This document shows positions 26,559-34,847 of a stretch of DNA of 64,000 nt, piece after piece (the stretch's first letter is position 1; every line of letters begins with the position of its first letter). The position numbers were made by a program, and so were the translations under genes. The stretch covers positions 558,001 to 622,000 of the forward strand of contig NZ_FWFR01000002.1 of NCBI RefSeq assembly GCF_900172325.1. The letters run 5' to 3'. The stretch is from Oceanibacterium hippocampi (lineage in GTDB: Bacteria; Pseudomonadota; Alphaproteobacteria; Sneathiellales; Sneathiellaceae). The notes below the pieces were generated by a model. That model was not told the DNA's origin. It searched no databases and worked only from the letters and a program-made list of their open reading frames with translations.

Positions 26559-27155
26559 ATGGAGAAGAGAGCCGAGCGACTGCAGGTCATGCTTACGCAG
26601 TCAGAGGTCCTTGCCGTCGATGACTGGCGTTTCGAGCACAAGATGCCGTCCCGCTCGGCGGCTGTCCGGGCATTGATGAACATCGGCCTCAGTACCGCCG
26701 GTTCGGTCGACGGCGAGAAGCTGATGCAGAACAACATCTCGTCTACCGATATCGGCGTGGTCAAGAACGGTTCCGCCGTTGTCCGCGAAGCGTTGCGCCT
26801 CGGCGACGGCGCCACCATCCTGATCGTCGATCAGGATTTCCTCATCGCGCACGGCATCAAGAGTGTCCTGGAAGACGCCGGATTCGACGTTCTCGAACCG
26901 GTCGCGACAACCGAAGAAGCGCTCAAGTCGGTCGAGCAGTTCGAACCGGACGCGGTCATTCTCGATCTGCATGCGGGCGAGTGTCCCGTCGTCGACATCG
27001 CCGATGCGCTCGCCGAGGCGAAGGTGCCCTTCATCTTCTGCACCGATTGCGACCCGCAGGACGCATTGCCGGAACGGCACTGGGTGGCACCGATCGTCAG
27101 CAAGGTCAGCATTCCCACAACACTCGTGACGGCGGTCCGCGATCTCGTCGAATAG
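26559..27155 (+). CDS. ribbon-helix-helix / response-regulator receiver fusion
   Basis: A 198-residue two-domain protein. Residues about 5-45 (RLQVMLTQSEVLAVDDWRF, then MPSRSAAVRALMNIGL) match the short ribbon-helix-helix proteins of alphaproteobacteria. Residues about 85-195 form a receiver: acidic pair in ILIVDQD, phosphoacceptor Asp in VILDLHAG, Thr in FCTD and a conserved Lys in VSKVSIP. Receivers of this type usually stand alone. The predicted role is a phosphorylation-controlled DNA-binding protein with no partner kinase beside it. It lies just upstream of dps at the edge of the stress island. Confidence 0.8.
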   Translation: MEKRAERLQVMLTQSEVLAVDDWRFEHKMPSRSAAVRALMNIGLSTAGSVDGEKLMQNNISSTDIGVVKNGSAVVREALRLGDGATILIVDQDFLIAHGIKSVLEDAGFDVLEPVATTEEALKSVEQFEPDAVILDLHAGECPVVDIADALAEAKVPFIFCTDCDPQDALPERHWVAPIVSKVSIPTTLVTAVRDLVE

Positions 27156-27169
27156 ACGCGTTCGGACCC

Positions 27170-27194
27170 GGAACCTGTCCGCCCGGTAAGCGTT
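27170..27194 (+). promoter_or_regulatory. EcfG-type promoter for dps
   Basis: GGAAC (27170-27174), 16 bp spacer, CGTT (27191-27194): an exact match to the alphaproteobacterial general-stress sigma factor (EcfG) consensus. It is 73 bp before the dps start codon, in the gap after the RHH-receiver gene. Dps is a classical general-stress target. Confidence 0.85.
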
Positions 27195-27267: not shown

Positions 27268-27777
27268 ATGAGCAAGCAGGCCGTTCTGCAGGCGAAACCC
27301 GGCAAGGTGAAGGTGAAGACCGGGATCCCCGAGCGCGACACCGGGAAACTGGCGACCTGCCTCTCCCGCTCGCTCGCCGATACCTACATCCTCTACCTGA
27401 AGACGCAGGGCACGCACTGGAACGCGGTCGGGCCGTTATTCTACGGCCTGCACAATCTCACCGAGGCACAATACGAGGATCTGGCGGCCGCCATCGACGA
27501 CATCGCCGAACGCATCCGCGCCATCGGCCATGTCGCGCCGTCCAGCTTCGCCGAGTTCGAGAAATTCTCGGAACTGAAGAGCGAGGCGACCCAGAAATCC
27601 GCCGAGAACCTCGTCCGCCAGCTCGTGGCCGACAACCAGGCGGTCGCCGAACGGCTGCGCCATTCCGTGCAGGCCGCCGAGGAGATCGACGATGTCTATA
27701 CCGCCGACCTCCTGACCGCCCGAATCGGCGCGCATGAGCAGGCGGCATGGATGCTGCGCTCGATCCTCGCCGAGTAG
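27268..27777 (+). CDS. dps: Dps, DNA-binding ferritin-like protein
   Basis: A mini-ferritin of 169 residues. The ferroxidase ligands are visible in TQGTHWNAVGPLFYGLHN (His) and AAAIDDIAERIRAIG (Asp, Glu), and a basic N-terminal tail (Lys-rich, residues 1-20) could bind DNA. Dps dodecamers oxidise and store iron with peroxide and protect DNA in stress. It is preceded by an EcfG-type promoter and followed 37 bp later by a small conserved gene likely on the same transcript. Confidence 0.94.
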   Translation: MSKQAVLQAKPGKVKVKTGIPERDTGKLATCLSRSLADTYILYLKTQGTHWNAVGPLFYGLHNLTEAQYEDLAAAIDDIAERIRAIGHVAPSSFAEFEKFSELKSEATQKSAENLVRQLVADNQAVAERLRHSVQAAEEIDDVYTADLLTARIGAHEQAAWMLRSILAE

Positions 27778-29644: not shown

Positions 29645-29669
29645 AACGCCTGTCGGCCCGGATTGTTCC
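29645..29669 (-). promoter_or_regulatory. EcfG-type promoter, minus strand
   Basis: Read on the minus strand: GGAAC (29669-29665), 16 bp, CGTT (29648-29645), 28 bp before the small membrane-protein gene that starts at 29617. It is back to back with a plus-strand copy whose GGAAC begins 7 bp away. Confidence 0.85.
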
Positions 29670-29675
29670 CGTCAT

Positions 29676-29700
29676 GGAACCAAAGCGGATGGCGCGCGTT
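29676..29700 (+). promoter_or_regulatory. EcfG-type promoter, plus strand
   Basis: GGAAC (29676-29680), 16 bp spacer, CGTT (29697-29700), 30 bp before the small gene at 29731. It is one half of a divergent pair that could fire both ways from a single stress signal. Confidence 0.85.
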
Positions 29701-29730
29701 CCTTGTTCAAACGCACCGAAGGAACAGGAG

Positions 29731-31510: not shown

Positions 31511-32281
31511 TCACGGCCACATGAGCGGTCGGTCGTAGTGGCTCTCCAGCGACTTCTCGAACTCGGGGCCGATCTCGGAATGGCCGGTGAATTCAGGGCT
31601 CTCCTTGATCGCCTGGCGCTCCAGGTCGACCTGGACGATCTTGGCCGACCAGTCGATCGCCTTGGCCCAGACCGGCGCGACGATCACCTTCCTGCCGGGC
31701 AGCCAGTTCCGCGTGTCGATGACCATGTAGCGGACGACCCAGGTTTCGTCATCGACCAGGAAGTCCTCGACATGGCCGATCTCGCCGTCGAGCGCCTCGA
31801 TGTGATAACCCTCGACCTCGTTCGCGCTGCGCAGGTGGGAATCGTGGCCCTCGGCGATTTCCGCCTCGCTCTCGCCCGCGGCGTTCCGTTCCTCGGGAAT
31901 CGCCCGCACCGGCTGCAACGGCGGGACCAGCGGCGCCGCCATGACGCCGGCCGGATAGGCCTCCCAGTAATAGGGCCAGTTGTAGTGACGGCGGAGATTG
32001 ATCTCCTCCTGGCGCGAGACCGGCAAGTCGGTCGAGACCCCGGGCCCCTCCTCGATCGCCTTCTTGGAGAGGCCGACGACGAACTTCTCGTCGACGATAT
32101 TGACGTCGTTCACCGCGTCGGGCGCGACCAGCACCTTGCGCCCGAACAGCCAGCCCGTGTCGACCACCATGTAGCGGACGGTCCAGACGCGGTCGTCGAA
32201 AAAGAAATCGTTCGCCTTGCCCACGTCGCCGTCCGACGCCTGGATCCGGTAGCCCTGCAGTTCCTTCATACTTTGCAACAT
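31511..32281 (-). CDS. protein with two PRC-barrel domains
   Basis: A 256-residue protein built from an internal duplication: repeat 1 at about 6-70 (LQGYRIQASDGDVGKANDFFFDD, VRYMVVDTGWLFGRKVLV) and repeat 2 at about 155-220 (VEGYHIEALDGEIGHVEDFLVDD, VRYMVIDTRNWLPGRKVIV). A Tyr/Trp/Pro-rich linker lies between (HYNWPYYWEAYPAG). PRC barrels are adaptor-like modules known from photosynthetic reaction-centre H subunits and RimM. An EcfG-type promoter lies 89 bp upstream. The molecular function is unknown. Confidence 0.85.
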   Translation of the reverse strand: MLQSMKELQGYRIQASDGDVGKANDFFFDDRVWTVRYMVVDTGWLFGRKVLVAPDAVNDVNIVDEKFVVGLSKKAIEEGPGVSTDLPVSRQEEINLRRHYNWPYYWEAYPAGVMAAPLVPPLQPVRAIPEERNAAGESEAEIAEGHDSHLRSANEVEGYHIEALDGEIGHVEDFLVDDETWVVRYMVIDTRNWLPGRKVIVAPVWAKAIDWSAKIVQVDLERQAIKESPEFTGHSEIGPEFEKSLESHYDRPLMWP

Positions 32282-33476: not shown

Positions 33477-34847
33477 TCAGGCGAGGGGCAGGCGCAGGAT
33501 GACCCGCAGTCCGGGCTCGTTGTCGGCGAGCGCCAGCGCCGCGCCGTGCAGCCTGGCGACCGCGGCCACCAGGCTCAGGCCAAGCCCGCTGCCCGGCGTT
33601 CCCCGGCTCGCGTCGAGGCGCACGAAACGCTGGAGCACGCGCTCCCGGTCGGCGGCGGGAATGCCGGGTCCGCTATCGGCAACCGCGAGGACGGCGGTAT
33701 CGCCCTCGCGGCCCAGCACAACCCGTATCTCCCCGCCTTCCGGCGTGAACTTGATGGCGTTGTCGATCAGGTTGGCGACCGCCTGGCCGAGCAGTTCGCG
33801 ATGGCCCCGGATCATGATCCCTGGCGCGACCTCGCCAACCAGCACGCGGCCGGCCTCTTCCGCCATCGGCTGGTAAAGATCCGCCAGATCGCCGAGCAGT
33901 TGCGAGAGGTCGAGCGAGCTGTCCGCCAGTCGGTTCATGCCGGTCTCGGCATGGGCGATGCTGATGAGCGCCTCGAAGGTGCGGAGGATGGTCTCCAGTT
34001 CGCCGTTGGTCTGCTCGAGGGTCTGCCGGTAGGTGGCGATGTCGCTTTCTCGGCGGAGCGCCAGTTCGATGCCGGTCTTGGCCCGGGTCAGCGGGCTGCG
34101 AAGGTCGTGGGCCAGGCTGTCGGTCACGGTCCGCATGCCGGTCATCAGGGTTTCGCTCTGCTCAAGCATCCTGTTGATGGTTTCCGCCAGCCGGTCGAAC
34201 TCGTCGCCGCTGCCGGCGAGCGGCACGCGGCGGGTCAGATCGCCGGCCAGGATCTCCTCGCTGGTTGCCCGCACCGCGTCGACCCGGCGCAGCGCGTAGC
34301 GGCCGATCAGGACACTGCCAAGGAGGCCGAGCGCCAGCGCCGGCAGGAGCGCCCAGACGATCGCGTTGATCATGATCTCCTTGAAGAGACTGCGTTCCGC
34401 CGTGTCGCGGCCGACGAACAGGTGATAGCCGCCCTTCAGGACAAAGACCCGGCCGCGAACCACATGGCGGGTCGTCGCACCGTTCAGGTTGCGGGCAAGC
34501 GAAAGCTCGCGCCAGCCGTCGGCCGCCGACGCCTCGCGCGGCCACGCGGTCAGGTTGCCGGCGAGCATCGCGAAACCCGGCGTGGCGAGCCCGTAGACGC
34601 CGTCACCGCCACCGCGCGGTCCGCTCCGCTCGGCAATCACCTCGACCAGCCGCCCGATCCCCTCGGCCCGGTATTGCTCGTCAAGGCCCCGGATCTCCGC
34701 CTCGATCGTCTCGTTGAGTTGCGCGTCGATCAGCGACGAGGTCGACCAGTAGATGAAGCCGAGCAGCGCGACCAGGGTCACGCCGAGCAACAGGACGTAG
34801 AGAACCGCGACCTGGAATCCCGATGTCCTGAGCAGCCTAGTCAGCAC
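33477..34847 (-). CDS. sensor histidine kinase
   Basis: A 456-residue membrane kinase: helices at about 12-34 and 157-182 frame a periplasmic sensor of about 120 residues, followed by a HAMP region (about 182-235), phosphoacceptor His247 in DSLAHDLRSPLTR, and a HATPase domain with NLIDNAIKFTPEGG, DSGPGIP and GSGLGLSL. It starts with GTG inside the last codons of the response-regulator gene (11 bp overlap), so the two are a pair. The signal is unknown; the upstream degP-type gene suggests envelope stress. Confidence 0.92.
   Translation of the reverse strand: MLTRLLRTSGFQVAVLYVLLLGVTLVALLGFIYWSTSSLIDAQLNETIEAEIRGLDEQYRAEGIGRLVEVIAERSGPRGGGDGVYGLATPGFAMLAGNLTAWPREASAADGWRELSLARNLNGATTRHVVRGRVFVLKGGYHLFVGRDTAERSLFKEIMINAIVWALLPALALGLLGSVLIGRYALRRVDAVRATSEEILAGDLTRRVPLAGSGDEFDRLAETINRMLEQSETLMTGMRTVTDSLAHDLRSPLTRAKTGIELALRRESDIATYRQTLEQTNGELETILRTFEALISIAHAETGMNRLADSSLDLSQLLGDLADLYQPMAEEAGRVLVGEVAPGIMIRGHRELLGQAVANLIDNAIKFTPEGGEIRVVLGREGDTAVLAVADSGPGIPAADRERVLQRFVRLDASRGTPGSGLGLSLVAAVARLHGAALALADNEPGLRVILRLPLA

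Follow-up and report, generated by a model that had tools for sequence, protein, structure and literature searches.

The usual place of a receiver is ahead of a helix-turn-helix output domain. A gene of Oceanibacterium hippocampi has instead a probable ribbon-helix-helix (RHH) domain in front of a receiver, and the question it raises is whether that receiver switches DNA binding by phosphorylation, as the original prediction had it, or serves the protein in another way. The gene lies in a 64-kb stretch of DNA, here called the window (Table 1). Its open reading frame is intact and uninterrupted, begins with ATG and has GC contents of 0.66/0.39/0.79 at the three codon positions, which is typical of coding DNA. 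A start at the alternative ATG at 26589 would cut away the predicted RHH strand, and homologues cover that stretch, so the first ATG is preferred. The frame is a real gene, and the joined architecture is real but very rare. It was also partly misread: the reading frame, both domains and the motif context of the original prediction hold, while the full set of phosphorylation residues does not.

Table 1. Features at the fusion gene and in its surroundings (positions in the window)
Feature	Position	Strand	Evidence
RHH-receiver fusion gene, 198 aa	26559..27155	+	ORF, coding GC pattern, two full-length orthologues
Probable RHH domain, aa 1-46, predicted helices 14-26 and 32-46	26559..26696	+	Alignment of stand-alone RHH family, Pfam RHH_1 in 10/18 members, AF2 model
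Linker, aa 47-83, tail motif SSxDIG(V/I), pLDDT <50 over most	26697..26807	+	Alignments, model
FATGUY-type receiver, aa 84-198 (D91, D136, T162, K182 kept; Q92, V183 changed)	26808..27152	+	Pfam, phmmer to Sma0114, FATGUY profile, residue map
EcfG-type motif GGAAC-N16-CGTT, before Dps-like gene	27170..27194	+	Motif search
Dps-like ferritin, next gene after fusion	27268..27777	+	Pfam Ferritin 4.3e-25
Tandem PRC-barrel protein	31511..32281	-	Pfam PRC; blastp 6e-44 to L169:56-1030, 3e-52 to L170:85-945

About the first 70 residues of the protein are homologous, at 36–63% identity, to short stand-alone alphaproteobacterial RHH proteins (ERLQxML...MPSRAAAxREL), a resemblance that had been noticed before and is upheld here. 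These relatives form a widespread, unnamed family with ORFs mostly of 63–131 aa, and are annotated as hypothetical protein in most plasmid matches; unlike the fusion they are short and have no receiver. Their common pattern is RxERLQ(I/V)ML...EL...D(D/E)(W/F)RF..(R/K)MP(S/T)R(A/S)AA(V/I)RxL..GL with a short (K)SxxFGV tail behind it, and the homology includes this tail motif, which aligns as KSxxFGV in the stand-alone proteins and ISSTDIGV in the fusion. The invariant positions R4-Q9-M11-L12-E16-A35-R37-L39-G43 of the family alignment fit an RHH domain. Pfam RHH_1 does not match the window protein itself but does match members of its family (best 8.5e-5). In a profile search of solved structures the RHH region of NikR was returned weakly (E 0.076), together with one weaker unrelated match, and NCBIfam named NikR, again weakly, for one family member. 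An RHH domain binds DNA in dimeric form, a single sheet being built from the strands of both subunits. In the AF2 model of the monomer (mean pLDDT 65.5, which is modest) the two helices are predicted and the RHH strand is not formed. Matches to the receiver took up the whole of the Foldseek and VIA-align lists, which are therefore uninformative on this part, and a mixed alignment including separate receivers placed these wrongly on the RHH part and was left out of folding. By homology, the N-terminal part is likely an RHH domain.

The C-terminal half had been described as a receiver with all phosphorylation residues, of which the receiver stands and the residue set stands in part. Pfam Response_reg matches this half at 2.8e-8, its best phmmer match is Sma0114 (2lpm), and VIA-align fits the predicted model to the receiver fold with Z 13.6 and rmsd 2.1 over 100 residues. 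Scored against a profile from 24 class receivers of HWE/FATGUY type, the window receiver reaches 98.7 bits, compared with 28 bits for CheY and 127–155 bits for the intact FATGUY receivers inside that profile. Mapping onto CheY gives D12=D91, D13=Q92, D57=D136, T87=T162, K109=K182 and P110=V183, and the same six positions are E, D, D, T/S, K and P in 24/24 FATGUY-type comparison receivers. The phospho-Asp (D136), T162 and K182 are present, and the window receiver is therefore not aspartate-less. The acidic pair is incomplete, as the second metal-binding acid, Asp in all of the compared receivers, is Gln (Q92), and the conserved Lys-Pro has become Lys-Val. Residues 157–164 (PFIFCTDC) match the FATGUY motif PFxFATG[G/Y] only partially. 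Because D13 of CheY contacts Mg2+ directly, Q92 should, by analogy, weaken phosphorylation of the window receiver.

A survey for the same architecture by profile scan of genome contigs yielded, among the matches listed, at least two other full-length orthologous fusions, one of 215 aa in Leisingera sp. ANG59 (L074) and one of 224 aa in Thermohalobaculum xanthum (L075). The three are homologous over their full length at 34–38% identity (36–37%, tblastn 2e-29 and 4e-28, for the two orthologues), and the RHH and linker parts of both orthologues align closely with the window protein. All three lineages have an open full-length frame, and motifs in linker and tail (S-x-[VL]-S-[IVM]-P) are conserved among them. 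At the six diagnostic positions everything is lost in the orthologue tails, which read G106/T107/I147/M173/Y193/L194 in Leisingera and A97/S98/A142/L168/R188/L189 in Thermohalobaculum; both are aspartate-less, with neither phospho-Asp nor either acid, Thr or Lys, and Pfam Response_reg matches neither of them. The Leisingera tail is still predicted to take the receiver fold (mean pLDDT 74; Z 13.6, rmsd 2.6–2.7 over 115–118 residues), and among the receivers compared the best match of both tails is the window tail. In a tree of the short RHH part the fusions are not resolved and a single fusion clade is not rejected (p-AU 0.61); a single origin is the simplest reading, which this tree neither proves nor rejects. 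The best reading of these sequences, in which three fusions are known and decay is judged from two diverged relatives, is that the orthologue tails are pure pseudo-receivers and that the window protein may stand at an earlier stage of the same change.

The fusion is distributed very sparsely. It occurs in 1/26 genomes of its own order, in none of the 384 other genomes of a class sample of 385, in 2/391 genomes of a Rhodobacterales sample, in 1/149 of a family sample around Thermohalobaculum and in 1/21 Leisingera genomes, which makes it patchy (about 7–8 candidates were scored per genome in the large samples; weak matches could escape at this depth, and full-length fusions should rank first). 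The class-wide sample queried with the window protein gave only the protein itself, stand-alone RHH proteins and separate receivers, and the fusion profile run over an equal-sized class sample of largely the same genomes gave nothing at 1e-22. Stand-alone RHH open frames in the class-wide sample do not exceed 131 aa, except for a 188-aa frame of the paralogue in the own genome. No fusion was seen in searches of plasmids and phages, and peptide words taken from the window protein, scanned genome-wide, returned no relative; the profile scan did find relatives. Two candidates were discarded: a match over aa 2–161 in Bradyrhizobium lablabi (L077) continues beyond the stop of what is a stand-alone RHH gene, and a 351-aa frame with an RHH part in another genome (G636) is a long open frame upstream and no receiver fusion. 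In the literature searched, we saw no bacterial RHH-receiver protein described and, at title and abstract level, no paper linking ribbon-helix-helix proteins with PhyR.

The surroundings of the gene are as first described in two respects. The intergenic stretch before it contains no GGAAC-N15-18-CGTT motif, such a motif being present right before the Dps-like gene, where it lies 73 bases upstream of the start codon, and no kinase gene is adjacent to the fusion; one of the other kinases of the genome is encoded at 33477-34847. Eight GGAAC-N15-18-CGTT motifs occur in the window, against 1.5 expected by chance. No clear operator repeat was found upstream of the fusion gene. At 29645-29702, EcfG-type motifs lie on both strands within 60 bases (29645-29669 on the minus and 29676-29700 on the plus strand), a possible divergent promoter pair. 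A tandem PRC-barrel protein is encoded within about 10 kb of all three fusions, a proximity that is suggestive only, PRC-barrel genes being common.

FATGUY receivers exchange phosphate with HWE and HisKA2 kinases (PMC5964349). HWE_HK and HisKA_2 profiles found no match in the own genome, which is 99.4% complete, and match 2/14 control genomes. No PhyR of this genome scores above the NCBIfam cut-off, each match being confined to the sigma half or the receiver half. One paralogue of the same RHH family is encoded in the genome (L056:9436-9843), and its RHH part is followed by a weak Rv0623/VapB-antitoxin-like segment (PF07704 9e-5, below cut-off). Between this paralogue and an ECF sigma factor gene 1.8 kb away stands a PRC-barrel gene. 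The N-terminal part of the sigma factor (G000:C7, L056:5582-7660) matches PhyR_sigma2 (3.1e-23), the gene divergent to it has a weak zinc-finger anti-sigma match (zf-HC2 0.0012; NepR 0.008; both below cut-off), and several GGAAC-N15-18-CGTT motifs are found around it. In a genome without a recognisable PhyR, this may be the sigma factor behind the EcfG-type motifs of the window.

The earlier statement that these families are usually found as separate proteins is true and incomplete, since the separate genes recurrently adjoin: unfused RHH genes are found beside genes for PhyR, a FATGUY receiver or a divergent degenerate receiver. In one genome (G039; L057:8156-5295) genes for a hybrid HisKA kinase, a FATGUY receiver whose residues are intact and an RHH protein stand in that order on one strand, in an apparent operon. 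In another (G401), only 34 bases separate one RHH gene from a PhyR-like gene; a second RHH gene is divergent to the gene of a phytochrome-type HWE hybrid kinase, beyond which a PhyR-like gene follows. That genome has four RHH genes of the family (one in L058, two in L059, one in L073), and PhyR-like genes lie near two of these (L073:4262-5239, L058:4813-9379). Seven Bradyrhizobium loci, which form one syntenic group, have PhyR, either whole or truncated by the end of the locus, 0.3–2.5 kb from the RHH gene. In at least five Rhodobacterales loci (L087, L093, L162, L163, L168) the RHH gene has as its divergent neighbour a single-domain receiver in which the acidic pair is gone and Asp and Lys-Pro are kept; these pseudo-receivers are not specially close to the fused receivers, and their degeneration therefore looks independent. 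The association is a qualitative one, read from these loci. We suggest tentatively, at somewhat less than even confidence, that an uncharacterised alphaproteobacterial family of DNA-binding RHH proteins is functionally coupled to receivers of the FATGUY/PhyR type, whether these are its neighbours, operon mates or fusion partners or degenerate receivers encoded divergently. The family would then make up a hitherto unrecognised transcriptional arm of stress signalling, with a receiver that acts either with phosphate or without it.

For the fusion itself, we think it slightly favoured overall that it is an RHH regulator with a receiver-derived tail acting as a phosphate-independent, or nearly phosphate-independent, dimerisation or partner-binding module, not as an ordinary phosphorylation switch. 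The orthologue tails without phosphorylation residues, the absence of HWE or HisKA_2 matches and the Rhodobacterales receivers without the acidic pair speak for this. The gene product would be a homodimeric RHH transcription regulator, possibly of nearby stress genes, and its C-terminal domain, probably derived from a FATGUY-type receiver, would tune DNA binding with little or no aspartyl phosphorylation. The tail would be independent of phosphate in the two orthologues and perhaps still weakly responsive in the window protein, where phospho-Asp, Thr and Lys remain and one metal ligand and Lys-Pro are gone, as might be expected of an earlier stage. The original proposal was that a kinase or acetyl phosphate acts on D136 and so switches DNA binding. 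In its favour are the four retained residues (D91, D136, T162 and K182), the strong FATGUY profile score, the intact FATGUY receiver gene set between hybrid kinase and RHH genes in G039 (L057:5295-8156) and the RHH genes near PhyR in Bradyrhizobium and G401; it is nonetheless weakened, to the point of being unlikely, by Q92 in place of a direct Mg2+ ligand, by the loss of Lys-Pro, by the disappearance of every phosphorylation residue from the orthologues and by a genome with no recognisable HWE or HisKA_2 kinase. As phospho-Asp, Thr, Lys and one acid are kept and the FATGUY score is 99 bits, phosphorylation of the window receiver, by a different kinase or by acetyl phosphate, may still occur. 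As the mechanism of the whole family, phosphorylation control is not supported, although the domain assignment and the architecture of the original prediction stand.

It is a good deal less probable that the joining was a chance or selfish event, in which an RHH gene and a receiver came together on an island that is mobile or variable, the receiver drifting since then without function. A very patchy distribution, rapid loss of residues and a transposase-like ORF near the Leisingera copy (L169:3953-4204; named by eye) would suit such a history, but unconstrained drift would break the full-length frame and the linker and tail motifs that three lineages keep at their level of divergence, and a receiver fold is still predicted. 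We give very little credence to a last reading, in which the N-terminal part is not a DNA-binding RHH domain and is instead a segment that binds proteins, for instance as an anti-sigma-like partner or a phosphorelay partner within the stress-response machinery. The stand-alone relatives near PhyR and receivers, the weakness of the best solved-structure match and the strand not formed in the monomer model would agree with it, whereas the RHH_1 matches within the family, the predicted helix pair and the pattern of invariant residues fit RHH.

If the preferred reading, that of a largely phosphate-independent tail, is true, an RHH domain placed before a receiver that is losing its phosphate site and keeping its fold would represent a phosphorylation switch turned structural module. 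The recurrent RHH-receiver neighbourhoods, in turn, offer stand-alone FATGUY receivers, which lack an output domain, a DNA-binding partner that can be tested. The FATGUY single-domain response regulators MrrA, SdrG and Sma0114 share receiver sequence and fold, the PFxF...T core and an alphaproteobacterial stress setting with the window receiver (PMC5964349; PDB 2lpm, 5ieb), which differs from them in being fused behind an RHH domain, in having lost the second acid and Lys-Pro and in reading PFIFCTDC for PFxFATG[G/Y]. Pseudo-receivers, in which the Asp is missing and the fold is kept, are well documented (PMC4395418). The two orthologues resemble aspartate-less examples such as RitR and FrzS in having lost the metal-binding and phosphorylation residues with the fold kept, whereas the window protein still has its phospho-Asp, and RitR and FrzS have other output domains (PMC4395418). 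The architecture is, as predicted, unlike that of OmpR, NarL or PhyR, its DNA-binding domain being N-terminal and of the RHH kind. OmpR, NarL and NtrC types have an N-terminal receiver and a C-terminal HTH, an order that is reversed in the fusion, for which Pfam gives no HTH family match. PhyR likewise has an N-terminal effector domain followed by a C-terminal receiver, but its effector is sigma-like (anti-anti-sigma). Arc-type RHH-HisKA-REC proteins have been reported from Lokiarchaeum (PMC5847659) and likewise combine an N-terminal RHH with a receiver at the end; they are archaeal, however, and contain a kinase domain, and there is no evidence of common descent with the fusion described here.
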